Source: Opitutales bacterium
GTDB taxonomy: Bacteria; Verrucomicrobiota; Verrucomicrobiae; Opitutales; CAG-312
Assembly (NCBI GenBank): GCA_017623955.1
Contig: JAGAOA010000192.1
Coordinates: 1 to 5,586 of the forward strand
Direction of reading: 5' to 3'
DNA: 5,586 nt
Shown here one piece after another: positions 140 through 5,518 of the stretch. Each line of letters begins with the position of its first letter. Positions within the stretch are counted from its first letter, which is position 1. Below the pieces are notes generated by a model. The model did no database searches. It saw only the letters and a list, made by a program, of their open reading frames with translations, and was not told where the DNA came from. The position numbers were made by a program, and so were the translations under genes.

Positions 140-152
140 ATGACATTGTCAT
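140..152. repeat. 13-bp palindrome at the transposase stop codon
   Basis: ATGACATTGTCAT is a perfect palindrome with 6-bp arms and a single central base. It covers the transposase TGA stop (149-151). It has no adjacent T-run, so it is not a typical terminator. It could be a small operator or chance. Confidence 0.3.
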
Positions 153-1135
153 ATAATTTTTAAGATATTTTTCTTGTGTATTCCACCCCATAGTTCCTGT
201 CTGCGTTCAAACGGGGTTAGCAGTACGGAACGGCCGTTCCGTATGAAACGCAACGCCGCCGAAGGTGTGTTATTCGAGCGTTTTAGATATTCTGCCATTT
301 GCTCTTGCAAATCGGCCAAAGTATGAAAACGCATATTGCTGTAAAATCGCTTTTGGTCATTCCGGTGGCTACGCTCCACCTTTCCGTTATGCCTAGGCGT
401 GTATGCTTGGATTAGCTTATGCTCAATTTTTAACCGTTGGCATAGCCTATCGAAAGCGTGAGTCATAGCTTCCTTATTTTTGGACCGCACCGGGGTGAAC
501 TCTCGGCCATTATCCGTTTGGATAACTTTCGGTCGGTATCGAAAATACAGAATTGCTCGTTTGACAAAGTCAACCGTGGCTCTTGCGGAAATTTCATTGT
601 AAGCATAGATAAATCGTTCCCGGCTAGCTTCGTCTATCATCGTGTACTGGAAATACTTGTCTTTGTATGCCCGGCCAATACGACAATCGCTCGGAACAAA
701 CTTAACGTCCATTTGCCACTTCTCGCCTAGCTGTTGCGGTGTGTCGTATGGTTTAGGGACATACACTTCCTTGGTGTTTCGGTCATAGAATCCACCCTTG
801 TGCAAAAATTTCCACAAGCTTGCAATGTTCCGGGAATAACCAAACTCCACACGCAACCTACCATAAAGTTCATTCAAGCTTATTCCTGGATTATTGGCCA
901 CAACTTGAATTATTGCATTTTGTTCTTCTTCGGTGTGTGCTCTTGGGTGTGCCGAATGCGGACGACTAGACTTATTTTTTAAGCTTTCAGCTGTGCCGTC
1001 AAACTGTTTTTTCCACCGCCAGAGCGTTCGCTCCGAACATTCGAATTTAAGTGCCACATACCCAATTTTTGCGCCATTAGATAACATTTGCAGTGCCTTG
1101 AATTTTTGGGCATTGCTGTATTTTATAAAACTCAT
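149..1135 (-). CDS. IS481-family DDE transposase
   Basis: This 328-aa protein carries out cut-and-paste or copy-type transposition of its own IS. Residues about 5-45 form a helix-turn-helix with the SERTLWRWKKQF recognition-helix signature, which would bind the IS ends. A second winged or HTH-like segment spans about 65-115 (GISLNELYGRLRVEFGYS). The integrase core (RNase H fold) follows, with the metal-binding triad visible as D143 in QMDVKF, D208 in QTDNGREF and E254 in HNGKVERSHRND. The C-terminal tail contains the family-typical LTPFERR. Length and motifs match an intact IS481/IS3-like enzyme with no frameshift. The ATG start is supported by an AAAAGGGG ribosome binding site six bases upstream. 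The gene is a passenger unrelated to the conjugation or toxin functions nearby. Family assignment is by recognised motifs; the exact IS subgroup is not resolved. Confidence 0.92.
   Translation of the reverse strand: MSFIKYSNAQKFKALQMLSNGAKIGYVALKFECSERTLWRWKKQFDGTAESLKNKSSRPHSAHPRAHTEEEQNAIIQVVANNPGISLNELYGRLRVEFGYSRNIASLWKFLHKGGFYDRNTKEVYVPKPYDTPQQLGEKWQMDVKFVPSDCRIGRAYKDKYFQYTMIDEASRERFIYAYNEISARATVDFVKRAILYFRYRPKVIQTDNGREFTPVRSKNKEAMTHAFDRLCQRLKIEHKLIQAYTPRHNGKVERSHRNDQKRFYSNMRFHTLADLQEQMAEYLKRSNNTPSAALRFIRNGRSVLLTPFERRQELWGGIHKKNILKII
168..183 (+). repeat. Left terminal inverted repeat of the IS (candidate)
   Basis: TTTTTCTTGTGTATTC pairs with 1187-1202 with one mismatch. It codes for the Ile-His-Lys-Lys-Asn stretch near the transposase C-terminus. 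Confidence 0.5.
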
Positions 1136-1322: not shown

Positions 1323-1340
1323 CGTATAGACATCTATACA
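1323..1340. promoter_or_regulatory. Operator-like palindrome, copy 3 (imperfect)
   Basis: Plus strand reads CGTATAGACATCTATACA, sharing the GTATAGA/TCTATAC arms with the copies at 1580-1597 and 2829-2846. It differs at the first base and is asymmetric at the two central bases. It lies 23 bp past the stop of the 58-aa ORF. Unlike the other two copies it has no good -10 to its left on the minus strand. A CGCTTTTTT tract follows on the minus strand, so the RNA hairpin could also act as a weak terminator for the 58-aa gene. Confidence 0.65.
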
Positions 1341-1363: not shown

Positions 1364-1540
1364 TCAGTTTTTCTTGTCCGGTTTAGCGCTTTCGACATCA
1401 GCCTCATTCTCTTTTTTGGGTTTAATAAAATTATAAGCTTCATCAACATAAACCATACCTTCACTATGGATATAAGCCACGTGTTCACCACGGTTAGGTA
1501 TCTTTTCGTTTATCAACCTTGTTTGTTTTTTGGGGTTCAT
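1364..1540 (-). CDS. 58-aa protein of unknown function
   Basis: A small ORF that I do not recognise. It begins MNPKKQTRLINEK and ends SAKPDKKN. The centre is a short hydrophobic/aromatic block (HVAYIHSEGMVYVDEAYNFI), and the ends are basic or highly charged, with no transmembrane segment or signal peptide. It is very likely real because its expression signals are excellent: AAGGAG (1548-1553) lies seven bases before the ATG, and a consensus TATAAT (1564-1569) lies about 24 bp before the ATG. Palindrome copy 2 covers the matching -35. It ends with TGA followed at once by an in-frame TAA. The monocistronic promoter under the shared operator suggests coordinated control with the conjugation/toxin region. 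It is too small for a classical helix-turn-helix repressor; an accessory or modulator peptide of the element is a guess. Confidence 0.7.
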   Translation of the reverse strand: MNPKKQTRLINEKIPNRGEHVAYIHSEGMVYVDEAYNFIKPKKENEADVESAKPDKKN

Positions 1541-1563: not shown

Positions 1564-1593
1564 ATTATACACTAAAAACTGTATAGACGTCTA
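1564..1593 (-). promoter_or_regulatory. Promoter of the 58-aa ORF, overlapped by the palindrome
   Basis: The -10 is a perfect TATAAT (1564-1569). With an 18-base spacer the -35 is TAGACG (1588-1593), four of six matches to TTGACA, and falls in the centre of palindrome copy 2. A protein bound to the palindrome would block RNA polymerase. The predicted 5' untranslated region is only about 17 nt. Confidence 0.65.
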
Positions 1594-1597
1594 TACA
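1580..1597. promoter_or_regulatory. Operator-like palindrome, copy 2 (perfect)
   Basis: TGTATAGACGTCTATACA is a perfect 18-bp palindrome. It starts one base past the stop codon of the ToxN-like gene and covers the -35 of the 58-aa promoter. The TATAGAC/GTCTATA half-sites resemble operators of GntR/HutC-type regulators, but that is only a resemblance. A secondary possibility is an RNA hairpin terminator for the toxin gene, since GTTTTT follows on the minus strand. Confidence 0.8.
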
Positions 1598-1598
1598 A

Positions 1599-2627
1599 CT
1601 ATCGGCTATTTTGGTCACTGTCTTTTCTAATTGGCTTGGTAACTACTAGTTGTTGGCTATTGATTTTTACTTGTGTGCTTACTTGTCGGTTTGCTGTTCG
1701 CTGTTCCCTTTGGGTATTGACTTCCGCACGAACTTTGGATTGCGCTTGCTTGTTCACTGTTCCGTCTTTTGCGTCATACACAAAAGAACGGGCAACCACT
1801 TTAACATCCAATTTTGAATTATCAGCCACTTTTTTCATATCTACACATTTCTCTGGTGGAATACCGTACTCAGTGGATATTTTCTTTAATTCAGTCGGTT
1901 TACCTTTGACATAGAAAACTCTCATTTGCATTTGTTTATCGACCATTGCCTTAATTTCTGGGTCAAAAGAATTGTCCTTATCATTATGTATAGCAATGCA
2001 AATAACTTTATCAAGTGTTAGTGAAGGGTCAGTTTTAGATTTTTCATCGAATAATTTCTGCGCCTTGGCAATTTGATTATCGGTTAATTTATACTTCTTC
2101 TGTGCCTTATTTGCAATGTGCGCTTTAACATCAAAATTTCCAGCTGCTTTTTCCAATTTGGCAAAATTGTTAATGTGATTCAATTCTGGGTTGTCAATTT
2201 TTAATTCATATACAGTATTAAACAAATTAAAAATTTTATTTTTTACTTCCCTTTCATTATAGTGATTAAACTCTGTTGAAACAAGTTTTACATAATCTTC
2301 TGTTTGAGTTTCTCTTAAAAATTTCATTGTTAAACGTCTATAAACTTTTTCCGGAACAGGAACCATAAAATTCATCTTTACAGCGGAAACATATTTTTGT
2401 TTTTTATCATTATAAAAACGGTATTCGTATTGATTTGACATATTGACGTGTGACGAGACCGGGGCAAAATACCTTAACGAATTTTTGACAAATCCCGTAT
2501 CTATAAAAAACTTTTCTCTTTTGGGATATTTGCTTTTGGGGACTTGCTTATCTCCGTTTTCCGAGTCACGCAAAAAGTTCAAATACTCTTCATCTATGTA
2601 GTAAAACTTTAATTCATCATTTGTCAT
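1599..2627 (-). CDS. ToxN/AbiQ-family endoribonuclease (type III toxin) with long C-terminal extension
   Basis: This 342-aa protein is predicted to be a sequence-specific endoribonuclease that cuts cellular mRNA and is held inactive by a cognate RNA pseudoknot. The N-terminal half matches the ToxN/AbiQ pattern as I recall it from Pectobacterium ToxN. LKFYYIDEEYLNFLR at the start corresponds to ToxN KFYTISSKYIKYLK. VP then leads to K39 in EKFFID, YFAPVSS ends at S58-S59 (ToxN YLAPLTS), and VKMNFMVPV (83-91) corresponds to ToxN INLKFMIPI. From FID to VSS the match to ToxN is gap-free. Residues equivalent to ToxN Tyr10, Lys33 and the Thr-Ser pair are Y15, K39 and S58-S59. Known members are about 170-200 aa. 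Residues about 167-342 are an extra charged segment ending in a Gln/Arg/Asn-rich tail that I do not recognise. The ATG at 2625-2627 places KFYYID as near the start as in ToxN. An in-frame ATG at 2634-2636 is an alternative and a TTG at 2661-2663 lies inside the terminator stem. The Shine-Dalgarno signal is poor. An antitoxin-like RNA and terminator lie directly upstream. Confidence 0.82.
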   Translation of the reverse strand: MTNDELKFYYIDEEYLNFLRDSENGDKQVPKSKYPKREKFFIDTGFVKNSLRYFAPVSSHVNMSNQYEYRFYNDKKQKYVSAVKMNFMVPVPEKVYRRLTMKFLRETQTEDYVKLVSTEFNHYNEREVKNKIFNLFNTVYELKIDNPELNHINNFAKLEKAAGNFDVKAHIANKAQKKYKLTDNQIAKAQKLFDEKSKTDPSLTLDKVICIAIHNDKDNSFDPEIKAMVDKQMQMRVFYVKGKPTELKKISTEYGIPPEKCVDMKKVADNSKLDVKVVARSFVYDAKDGTVNKQAQSKVRAEVNTQREQRTANRQVSTQVKINSQQLVVTKPIRKDSDQNSR

Positions 2628-2651
2628 TATGCCCATAATATCATTGACAAT

Positions 2652-2683
2652 AAAAAATAGCAACAGCGAACTGTTGCTATTTT
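2652..2683 (-). terminator. Intrinsic terminator between RNA antitoxin candidate and toxin gene
   Basis: On the minus strand AAAATAGCAACAG (2683-2671), loop TTCG (2670-2667) and CTGTTGCTATTTT (2666-2654) form a perfect 13-bp stem capped by a UUCG tetraloop. An uninterrupted run of six T (2657-2652) starts in the last base of the core stem. This is a textbook rho-independent terminator pointing toward the toxin gene, whose start is only about 25 bp further. In type III systems such a terminator sets the antitoxin RNA:toxin mRNA ratio by limited read-through. Confidence 0.9.
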
Positions 2684-2720
2684 CCTTACAATCTTGCTTT
2701 TAACGGCCGCAAGAGCCTAT
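2652..2720 (-). ncRNA. Candidate type III antitoxin RNA (single pseudoknot unit plus terminator)
   Basis: The predicted transcript is about 70 nt, from the promoter at 2725-2752 to the terminator. The 5' part can fold as an H-type pseudoknot. Stem 1 is GGC (2717-2715) with GCC (2707-2705). Stem 2 is CUUGC (2713-2709) with GCAAG (2697-2693), extendable by U2714-A2692. Loop 1 is one base or none, the inter-stem base is G2708, and loop 3 is GUUAAAA (2704-2698). A one-base loop over the deep groove and an A-rich seven-base loop over the shallow groove suit pseudoknot geometry, and ToxI-type antitoxins are pseudoknots. UUGUAAGGAAAAU follows, an A-rich linker where a ToxN-like enzyme could cut. Known ToxI, CptI and TenpI loci carry tandem repeats; I see only one unit here. 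Alternative: a leader/attenuator rather than an antitoxin. Confidence 0.6.
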
Positions 2721-2724
2721 GGGT

Positions 2725-2752
2725 ATATTACCACAAATAATTTTAATGTCAA
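2725..2752 (-). promoter_or_regulatory. Promoter of the antitoxin RNA candidate
   Basis: On the minus strand a perfect TTGACA (2747-2752) is followed after 16 bases by TAATAT (2725-2730), placing transcription start near 2717-2720. Nothing but a short structured RNA lies between this promoter and the terminator, so its main product must be a small RNA, with read-through into the toxin gene. Confidence 0.7.
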
Positions 2753-2793: not shown

Positions 2794-2823
2794 ATTATAT
2801 GTTTTTTCTTTGTGTTTTATCAC
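2794..2823 (-). promoter_or_regulatory. Upstream promoter candidate beside palindrome copy 1
   Basis: A perfect TATAAT (2794-2799) has a partial -35, GTGATA (2818-2823), 18 bases upstream, just downstream of palindrome copy 1. An alternative uses TAGACA within the palindrome (2837-2842) and TAAAAC (2814-2819) with a 17-base spacer. Either would give a longer, operator-controlled transcript through the RNA and toxin. The small palindrome GGTACAGTACC (2776-2786) lies just past the predicted start. Confidence 0.4.
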
Positions 2824-2828
2824 TCTAC

Positions 2829-2846
2829 TGTATAGATGTCTATACA
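2829..2846. promoter_or_regulatory. Operator-like palindrome, copy 1
   Basis: TGTATAGATGTCTATACA on the plus strand has eight-base arms and differs from the perfect copy at 1580-1597 only at one central base. It starts two bases past the virB4-like stop codon, and its TAGACA half can serve as a -35 on the minus strand. Recurrence at three successive gene boundaries argues for a shared DNA-binding regulator. Confidence 0.78.
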
Positions 2847-2848
2847 AA

Positions 2849-5518
2849 TTATGCTACATCAGTCATAGCTGCTATTTCTTCTTTTGTGTGTACATTCGTA
2901 AACAAATCGCTTACCGTATCGTTGGCCACGACCTGGAAGCTGGTGCGTTCGCGTGCGCCAGAAATCAAGAAACAATGGCCACGTTGGCCGTTCGCAATTT
3001 CGGAACGTTCGGCTGGGTTAATCCCTCCGGCATTCTCGTACAAGTCAGTCAAGATTTCAAGGTCGGCCGGCGCCAACGGGAAGACAAAGCTGTACTGGCT
3101 ATTGTTTACAATGGCCGTTGTCCTCGAAATAATTTCCTGGTTACCAAAAATGTCGCCAAGGTTTTGCGTAATGAAGCAAATCATGCCGCCATATTTGCGA
3201 ATACGCTTGTACCACATATAGACGAAGTCCAAAGCAACTGGATATTTTGGATCAATGAAGTTATAACCTTCATCAATAATGATGCACGGGTGCAACCATT
3301 TGTCTTCCGGAACATCACGGTTCATTTCACGGATTTTAATAATCTGTTGTTCCAAGTAGCGCATAACCAACAACATTTGCGAGTTGGCCACAACGCTGTT
3401 TTTGCCTTCGAGCAATGACTGGAAGTTAAAGACTTCGAAGTCACTGTCGCTGGTTAAAGTACTTGGACCATTCCAAAGTTTCGCATTGCGTCCGTCGCCG
3501 GCAAACTTGGCAACATAGGTATTTACCAATTCAAGGTTGTGGCGTTGGATTGGATTTAAGTCAGTGTCCTGTGTAAGGTGGTTTTCAACGACTTTTTTCA
3601 AGTCATCAAAAATTGGAAATTGCTCTGGCTTAAAATTACTGCAATCGGTATCAGCAGTGATTCCTTTTGCCTTGTACGTTTCAAGTACAAAGTTATTCAA
3701 AATTTCAAAGCTGTCTTTATTCAAGTCTGGAATTGCGACTTTGAAGAAACTTTCCAAGAAGCGTAAATGGTTAGTGAAGACAACATCACTTGGTGCCGGT
3801 TCTCCGTTATCAGTCAACATTCCATAAATATGGAATGGGTTCAATCGACCAGTCACAGCCGAGCCAACATCTACCATATTGCCACTATAATTTTTTACCA
3901 TTACATCGTATTCATTCTCTGGGTCCAACACATAGAGTTTGCAATTATCGGAATGCAAATTTGACAAAAGTGTTTTGGTAAAATAGCTTTTACCGCCCCC
4001 AGACTTGCCGTAAATCGTCATATTGCTGTTTGTATGATTATAGTCGCGCTTCCAAGGGTCAAGCAATACGGGGTAATTGTTGTGGCCTAGTGGCAAACCT
4101 TTTTCGTCAATAATCGACGTAAAGATAAACGGGAAAACAGCAGCTAACGACTTGCTGTTAATGCCGCGTTCGTAACGACACAAACGGTTACGGCGCGTTA
4201 TCGAAGACGAAATGATACCGTCAATTTGACGAAAGCCGAGATAAGTTGTACGGAAGCCACCCCTGGCAATATCAGCGCGCAAATCCTTACGGAATGCTTG
4301 CTGGTCTTTGTTTCCATAGTTAAACCCGGTGACCGAAATAGTACAATCGAAAAGACTTTCGTTGCCGTTTTGCAAATCCACTAGCAACTCAGCCATTGTG
4401 TCAATGTGTGTTCCACCACCAATAATTTCACTATACTTTGTGACATTTTCACGCGCTTCGATTTCGGTACAAACTTTATCAATGCGCTTAATGGCCCTGT
4501 CTTTGTTAGTCGGTTTAATAGTCAAAACTACTTTGGTGTTGTCAATGTTAAACAAACCGCTTCCCCAAGCGTTATCAACATTTAACGGATAATCGGCCAC
4601 AGCCATAGTAACAGTTTCAATATCATCTACTTTGGCGCCAAAAGCGCTAAACTGGATACTGTTTGGCTTTACCCATTCCAAGTATTTATCCGGGGAAAGT
4701 TTGTCAATTTCGCGTTCATCGAAATTACGCGTGTAGCAGTATTTCAAAAATACGGCCACATCTTTTTGTCCAAGTTGTTCACTGGACAAGCCCATTTGCT
4801 GTAAAGACATCTTTACATTATCAAGTGTGCTTTGCAATGATTCTTTGTTATCATCAAATAACACAAGATAATAAAATGGTCGGTATTGTTTGACAACATT
4901 GTTTAGTGCGTCAAGTTGTGCTAGACGGGATTCCAACAAAACTTGGCGTACTTTATCTTCCTTGTCGCACGTTTGGATTTTATTGTTTACATGGTCGCTA
5001 ATTTTATCGAAGTTAATCGGTCGGTCGATTTTGACAATCTGTGCTTGTTGTTCGGTAGATAAACGGTTTAAGATTGCTGCAAACTGTTCAACCTTATTAT
5101 CCTGTGAATACTCGTCTAACAATCTAAACTCAATCGAAGACACCGAAAGTACGCCAGCATAATATAAACCGTCATACTCAATCACACCGTCTTCTGCAAT
5201 ACCAGTCTGTGGCATCAGCAAATCAATGCTATTTTTTCTTGTGTGCTTTTTCACGCCGTTACCGTACTTCTTGGCACCAAGCAAGTAACGGAGAACATTT
5301 TGGAAGATTTCATAAATTTTAATATCATCGTCACCGCGGAACAAGATGAGAACAAGCGCGATATAGATTATTTCCACAATCCACTTGCTCGGCAAGTTAC
5401 TAATTGCAATCAGTATGCCAATACCAGCAAACAACGCCATTAGCAACACATCAATAATTCCGTAGTTCTTCCATACGGTAAAGTTTACCTTTGATTTTTT
5501 TGGTATTTGTCTAATCAT
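2849..5518 (-). CDS. VirB4-like conjugation ATPase with PrgI-like membrane N-terminus
   Basis: This 889-aa cytoplasmic-face ATPase would power assembly and DNA transfer by a type IV secretion (conjugation) channel. Residues about 20-40 (IIDVLLMALFAGIGILIAIS) and 46-60 (WIVEIIYIALVLILF) are two membrane segments, the arrangement of the small PrgI-type channel protein, here fused ahead of the VirB4 body. The CagE/TrbE/VirB N-domain spans about 110-440. The RecA-like ATPase domain has Walker A GKSGGGKS (504-511; Lys510), LDPENEYD (531-538), Walker B IIIDEGYNF (746-754; Asp749, Glu750) and ITQN (783-786). All catalytic motifs are intact. The ATG start has AGGAG seven bases upstream and overlaps the upstream gene's TGA as ATGA, so translation is coupled. 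No strong terminator follows; palindrome copy 1 is two bases past the stop. It resembles TraE/VirB4 of Gram-positive integrative conjugative elements. A plasmid origin is equally possible. Confidence 0.92.
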   Translation of the reverse strand: MIRQIPKKSKVNFTVWKNYGIIDVLLMALFAGIGILIAISNLPSKWIVEIIYIALVLILFRGDDDIKIYEIFQNVLRYLLGAKKYGNGVKKHTRKNSIDLLMPQTGIAEDGVIEYDGLYYAGVLSVSSIEFRLLDEYSQDNKVEQFAAILNRLSTEQQAQIVKIDRPINFDKISDHVNNKIQTCDKEDKVRQVLLESRLAQLDALNNVVKQYRPFYYLVLFDDNKESLQSTLDNVKMSLQQMGLSSEQLGQKDVAVFLKYCYTRNFDEREIDKLSPDKYLEWVKPNSIQFSAFGAKVDDIETVTMAVADYPLNVDNAWGSGLFNIDNTKVVLTIKPTNKDRAIKRIDKVCTEIEARENVTKYSEIIGGGTHIDTMAELLVDLQNGNESLFDCTISVTGFNYGNKDQQAFRKDLRADIARGGFRTTYLGFRQIDGIISSSITRRNRLCRYERGINSKSLAAVFPFIFTSIIDEKGLPLGHNNYPVLLDPWKRDYNHTNSNMTIYGKSGGGKSYFTKTLLSNLHSDNCKLYVLDPENEYDVMVKNYSGNMVDVGSAVTGRLNPFHIYGMLTDNGEPAPSDVVFTNHLRFLESFFKVAIPDLNKDSFEILNNFVLETYKAKGITADTDCSNFKPEQFPIFDDLKKVVENHLTQDTDLNPIQRHNLELVNTYVAKFAGDGRNAKLWNGPSTLTSDSDFEVFNFQSLLEGKNSVVANSQMLLVMRYLEQQIIKIREMNRDVPEDKWLHPCIIIDEGYNFIDPKYPVALDFVYMWYKRIRKYGGMICFITQNLGDIFGNQEIISRTTAIVNNSQYSFVFPLAPADLEILTDLYENAGGINPAERSEIANGQRGHCFLISGARERTSFQVVANDTVSDLFTNVHTKEEIAAMTDVA

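Follow-up and report, generated by a model that had tools for sequence, protein, structure and literature searches.

A reduced form of a type III toxin-antitoxin module, in which one ToxI-like RNA unit precedes a ToxN-family toxin with a C-terminal tail, is probably encoded on the minus strand of contig JAGAOA010000192.1 (NCBI GenBank assembly GCA_017623955.1) of an Opitutales bacterium. The whole 5,586-nucleotide stretch analysed is called the window below. A type III module, as proposed in a preliminary description of this DNA, is the best reading of the locus, since the protein belongs to the ToxN/AbiQ family and an RNA with a predicted ToxI fold lies upstream. A tandem-repeat antitoxin is a criterion for type III in PMC8860590 and a key feature in PMC5086642. 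No tandem repeat was found between virB4 (2849) and the toxin gene (2627), so that the locus is filed as a new type III variant and the protein as a ToxN-family member. The module comprises the following features.

1599..2627, minus strand: tailed ToxN-family coding sequence, 342 amino acids (aa); an alternative in-frame start at 2636 gives a 345-aa form (P0002).
2124..2627, minus strand: ToxN endoribonuclease domain, residues 1-168; K39, S58 and S59 are paired with ToxN K33, T52 and S53.
1602..2123, minus strand: C-terminal tail, residues 169-342, mostly helical to about residues 316-322, followed by a disordered basic end with TQ.K...QNSR.
2652..2683, minus strand: terminator-like hairpin with a T-run between the unit and the toxin; UUCG loop; cutting is expected at the A-rich GGAAAAUAG at its base.
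2684..2720, minus strand: single ToxI-like unit; stem 1, 2717-2715/2707-2705; stem 2, 2714-2709/2697-2692; A-rich loop, 2704-2698.
2725..2752, minus strand: promoter-like TTGACA-16-TAATAT (TTGACA at 2752-2747, TAATAT at 2730-2725), with a putative transcript start at about 2718-2720.
2794..2823, minus strand: second promoter-like site, GTGATA-18-TATAAT, which starts 7 nt from a palindrome.

The 342-aa protein carries all four signatures named in the preliminary description (KFYYID, K39, APVSS and VKMNFMVPV). The ungapped alignment to ToxN claimed there was reproduced by phmmer against 2XD0, in which K39 to S59 align without a gap and the pairs K33/K39, T52/S58 and S53/S59 are formed. Assignment to the family is confirmed by the PF13958 (ToxN/AbiQ) profile, which gives 70.2 bits against a curated cut-off of 25. 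The predicted structure has the ToxN fold, and the family residues N86, M88 and P90 are retained. The expectation that a naive annotation would leave this protein hypothetical holds for the NCBIfam search, which returned no match, but not for the Pfam profile search, which finds the toxin at once.

The catalytic residues of E. coli ToxN are K33, T52, S53 and K55, and toxicity is abolished by K33A, T52V and K55A (PMC8860590). The chief sequence-based doubt about toxin activity, which weighs against a functional module, is that K55 has no clear counterpart in the window, where the sequence reads SSHVNMSN. Lysine is absent from the four residues after the Ser-Ser pair in 6 of 130 family sequences matched by pattern (12 more were unmatched): the window, P0003 and P0007 of its clade, and L031, L034 and L035. 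L034 and L035 have arginine in the Lys55 region and share the supported 13-row side of the toxin tree with the window. The toxin domain could therefore be inactive or altered, with the present function (e.g., regulation of the element) carried by the tail. Besides the missing Lys55 counterpart in the window, P0003 and P0007, this is suggested by the comparison with P0003-P0006, to which the last 91 residues of the window protein are 74-95% identical and its toxin domain 51-57%. However, K39, S58, S59, N86, M88 and P90 are retained, a lysine is present nearby in P0004-P0006, and persistence of the upstream pseudoknot would be unexplained; loss of toxin activity is considered quite unlikely.

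The short structured RNA postulated upstream of the toxin corresponds to the predicted pseudoknot at 2684-2720, which starts from 2717 with stem 1 (GGC/GCC), stem 2 (UCUUGC/GCAAGA) and the loop GUUAAAA. It is the best H-type pseudoknot of the virB4-toxin intergenic stretch (score -17.1 from a simple stacking sum, matched by 6 of 1500 dinucleotide shuffles). The TTGACA promoter of the preliminary description is present in the sequence together with TAATAT 16 nt away, but promoter-like sites as such occur at chance level (7 found and 7.1 expected in 1140-2900). With a transcript start at about 2718-2720, the 5′ end of the RNA would fall at the 5′ end of the unit. The proposed intrinsic terminator is also partly borne out: the hairpin (2683-2654) and T-run (2657-2652) are visible by inspection and also appear when 2640-2745 is folded (z -3.3; as good in 1 of 200 shuffles), but the hairpin was not picked up by the terminator scan. 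The order is thus promoter-like site, unit, terminator-like hairpin, toxin.

Relationship of this RNA to units of other ToxN loci is indicated by a MAFFT alignment made with no structure given. In this alignment (7 rows, 80% mean column identity) the window RNA aligns with the single units of L073, L006, L074 and L072 and with the last units of L079 and L071. Covariation was assessed on 16 units hand-picked from 13 other loci, the window being excluded. The pseudoknot drawn on these units pairs 89.3% of cells, compared with 77.8% after shuffling and at most 54.5% for slid versions of the drawn structure. Double-sided changes number 14 vs 3.9 in shuffled sets, and the covariation score is 0.374 vs 0.172 (0 of 500 shuffles as high in either case). 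Across the whole window, a covariance model of stem 2 only, built from the 16 units, scores best at 2686-2721 on the correct strand (11.4 bits, E 0.21); this match is weak alone, yet it lies on the predicted place.

Several results speak against the unit as drawn. Stem 1 has three pairs only. Equally good pseudoknot frames number 6 of 180 across both strands of the window; three of them belong to this locus and three overlap at one site inside virB4, where the frames are better (-19.5). The structure was drawn by eye on the same 16 sequences on which covariation was scored, and two of the five measures are unremarkable: pairs with a double-sided change number 5 vs 2.8 in shuffled sets (as high in 20 of 500), and the count of further pair types (7 vs 7.0, as high in 333 of 500) gives no signal. 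The runners-up of the covariance model elsewhere in the window reach 10.5 and 9.7 bits. When the same model was run with default filters on 11 further loci, it detected a single unit in L006 (a near-copy of a model member), in L092 (22.1 bits) and in L002 (17.2 bits), but it failed to find the arrays of L010 and L104 and recovered 2 of about 4 units in L041. The model is thus insensitive and unreliable for counting, and a lone match is poor evidence that the locus has only one unit.

The upstream RNA could alternatively be an unrelated leader, with the antitoxin located elsewhere. Rfam gives no match at the locus up to E 5, as such a leader would allow; at the gathering score, however, Rfam detects no ToxI at eight loci, five of which have arrays, and therefore its silence at the window says little. 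Since position and structure of the RNA also match the units of other ToxN loci, an unrelated leader is very improbable.

The frequency of single units was estimated in a survey of ToxN loci. Open reading frames (ORFs) of at least 120 aa matching the ToxN profile were taken from 116 sequences. Seven were dropped because of a too short upstream region (L042, L095, L070) or a too short ORF (L075, L068, L077, L083), shorter broken ORFs (e.g., L003, L004) were removed by the length filter, and merging only at identical residues 11-120 left 65 loci. This sample is not random, some further profile matches given no locus were outside it, and "one unit" is our own reading of each sequence. An array was called when the upstream tandem match was better than all 60 shuffles. 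Arrays precede toxN in 55 of the 65 loci and are lacking in 10, the window included; after clustering, the corresponding numbers are 49 and 9 of 58 groups (90% identity) and 46 and 7 of 53 groups (70% identity).

Seven of the ten loci without arrays (the window, L002, L092, L006, L073, L074 and L072) have one recognizable unit before a hairpin, as judged by eye and by a pseudoknot scan; by the same means, no unit was recognized in L113. L071 and L079, from the Treponema phylum, apparently have three successive ToxI-like pseudoknots with different stems (by eye), i.e., arrays without sequence repeats. Four changes of the single-unit label are needed on the toxin tree, and supported branches force the same number. 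Since single units thus occupy four places in the tree, one-copy antitoxins look real and repeated among ToxN loci. In one Treponema metagenome-assembled genome (G301), four ToxN genes are present, three with arrays and one read as single-unit.

The main caveat is that assembly may have collapsed the repeats, so that an ordinary ToxIN module with an array would appear as one unit in the metagenome contig. Such a collapse would agree with the prevalence of arrays in the survey, with the sole contig carrying the window's own protein (13,007 bases), and with AUAG at both unit ends, as in a 1.1-copy remnant (by eye). A collapsed array would be expected to leave a longer partial copy, which is not seen. 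Moreover, the same promoter-unit-hairpin layout occurs in Treponema-phylum loci, including L072, which lies on a contig of more than 2 million bases and has a broken toxin frame. Collapse is accordingly regarded as unlikely.

The locus could also hold a short array of divergent units, in which the unit at 2720 is preceded by a second one at about 2787-2752, with transcription from the promoter-like site at 2823-2794. Unlike units that escape repeat search are suggested by L071 and L079, and a weak pseudoknot (GGU/ACC, ACU/AGU) can be drawn by eye at about 2784-2760. Given that these helices are weak and that the covariance model, though insensitive, finds no unit there on that strand, little probability is assigned to this arrangement.

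The single-unit module resembles ToxIN (2XD0, 4ATO, 7D8O) in toxin fold, in three of the four named catalytic positions and in the order promoter, pseudoknot RNA, hairpin, toxin. It differs in having one antitoxin unit instead of 2.8 to 5.6 repeats (PMC5086642, PMC8860590), in protein length (342 aa vs 171 and 194 in solved ToxN chains) and in the lack of a clear Lys55 counterpart. The need for repeats in known systems weighs against one unit being sufficient: in AbiQ/AntiQ of Lactococcus (4GLK), AntiQ has 2.8 repeats, of which at least 1.8 are required, and ToxI of Pectobacterium needs 2.5 (PMC5086642). In CptIN (4RMO), CptI naturally has two repeats, and a single overexpressed repeat gives full protection (PMC4627078); the window toxin scores far better to ToxN than to CptN. 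Taken together with the requirements of AntiQ and ToxI, protection by one CptI repeat suggests that one unit is possible but may need plentiful synthesis. The single-unit loci L006, L073 and L074 of the Treponema phylum are alike in having a promoter-like site, one pseudoknot unit, a hairpin and a toxin (by eye), whereas their toxins are tailless (163 aa) and form a separate branch of the toxin tree. Neither a single-unit type III antitoxin nor a tailed ToxN surfaced in the literature searched, in which "ToxIN" was partly matched as "toxin" and many journals were uncovered; absence from print is not claimed.

The C-terminal tail (about residues 169-342) lies outside ToxN and makes the window protein about twice the usual ToxN length. 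It is predicted to form helices (predicted local distance difference test, pLDDT, blocks of 77-96 up to residue 280), and the searches gave no Pfam family, no plasmid relative and no convincing fold match for it. Relatives number 7 proteins by single-sequence search and 78 by profile search, the window's own being counted in both. Twelve of them (the window's own included), all of at least 241 aa, share a C-terminal signature in which both residues of TQ are invariant, K and a late N are nearly invariant and the last residue is R or K in all 12. No tailed relatives were found among the viral contigs searched, and in a search of genome contigs (11 loci) every match was confined to the toxin domain.

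The tail appears to be a separate module, exchangeable between distant ToxN domains. The toxin domain of P0008 is 78% identical to P0009 and 21% to the window, while over its last 91 residues it matches the window at 74% identity and P0009 at 24%. P0007 has the reverse pattern: compared with the window, its toxin domain is 57% identical and its tail 25%. These mismatched identities are therefore read as domain exchange. The tail might, as a guess, bind a partner encoded by the element or the host. Labels that address proteins for transfer are generally C-terminal and basic. As a long shot, the tail could be such a label for the DNA-transfer machinery of the element, since a basic disordered TQ.K...QNSR end occurs on two distant ToxN branches, the tail has been swapped and VirB4 is adjacent; ToxN would then enter the recipient with the DNA, and the recipient would survive only if it kept the element and made the antitoxin.

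Other long ToxN proteins were also encountered. A 518-aa ToxN of Lachnospiraceae UBA2864 (L001:9986-11541) has a C-terminal Fic domain (Pfam Fic, 2.4e-8); its gene is preceded by a 4-unit array, and the same contig has a VirB4 match. Tails are also present in a 295-aa ToxN of a Pasteurella multocida conjugative plasmid (L041:1501-2388) and in a 293-aa ToxN of L092 (genome G568, Fusobacterium phylum draw); by eye, these two tails differ from that of the window and from each other. An association between tails and single units was considered and rejected: the toxins of L001 and L041 are long yet preceded by arrays, and the single-unit toxins of the Treponema phylum are tailless.

The remaining features of the window are the following.

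2849..5518, minus strand: VirB4-type conjugation ATPase of the Mbov_0397 integrative and conjugative element (ICE) type, 889 aa.
149-1135, minus strand: IS481-type transposase (169 bits, under the cut-off of 224).
1364-1540, minus strand: 58-aa ORF behind the second palindrome, with a good ribosome site (by eye).
2830..2845: palindrome GTATAGATGTCTATAC, between virB4 and the module.
1581..1596: palindrome GTATAGACGTCTATAC, 3′ of the toxin; overlaps a promoter-like site before the 58-aa ORF.
1324..1339: palindrome GTATAGACATCTATAC, 3′ of the 58-aa ORF.

The location on a conjugative element, as first proposed, is backed by VirB4, which matches the Mbov_0397 ICE family (1.7e-175), but this is one gene only and its 585.2 bits are under the cut-off of 590. 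VirB4 relatives (E ≤1e-30) occur in 31 of 299 genomes of the phylum of G002 (Emergencia), the best being 42% identical, and in none of 149 genomes of the Treponema phylum, a set without a positive control. In the plasmid collection, among the matches listed, all 15 rows are Spiroplasma (25-28% identity). Transposase relatives (E ≤1e-40) were found in 2 of the 299 genomes (41-42% identity), and a simple scan of parts of the flanks revealed no terminal inverted repeats. The 58-aa ORF has no Pfam, NCBIfam or PADLOC match. Three exact 16-bp palindromes (GTATAGAYRTCTATAC) are intergenic, and virB4 contains a fourth copy with two mismatches, against 0 expected; one overlaps a promoter-like site and another is 7 nt from one. 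The palindromes would suit a candidate operator of the element. A shared operator was not established; the 18-bp motif was present in a single viral contig, and the long proteins encoded there are unrelated.

The toxin of ToxIN cleaves its repeat RNA at A-rich positions and remains attached to the product (PMC8860590), and cutting at GGAAAAUAG is expected by analogy with this work. In the single-unit module, the promoter would fire directly into one pseudoknot unit, the 5′ end of which would be determined by where transcription begins rather than by removal of an upstream repeat. At the 3′ end, ToxN could trim the RNA in the A-rich GGAAAAU that precedes the terminator hairpin, so that one cut would suffice, and would stay blocked by the trimmed RNA product. 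Read-through of a leaky terminator and a weak ribosome site would yield little toxin. When antitoxin synthesis stops upon element loss or phage transcription shut-off, ToxN would be freed and would cut A-rich RNAs.

Published type III searches require repeats (PMC8860590, PMC5086642), and single-unit loci would therefore be dropped by them. The tail would represent a part of ToxN transferred between toxins in the course of evolution. Should one unit be sufficient, the array is non-essential, and its role (dose, processing or phage sensing) could be tested on natural one- and many-unit systems.
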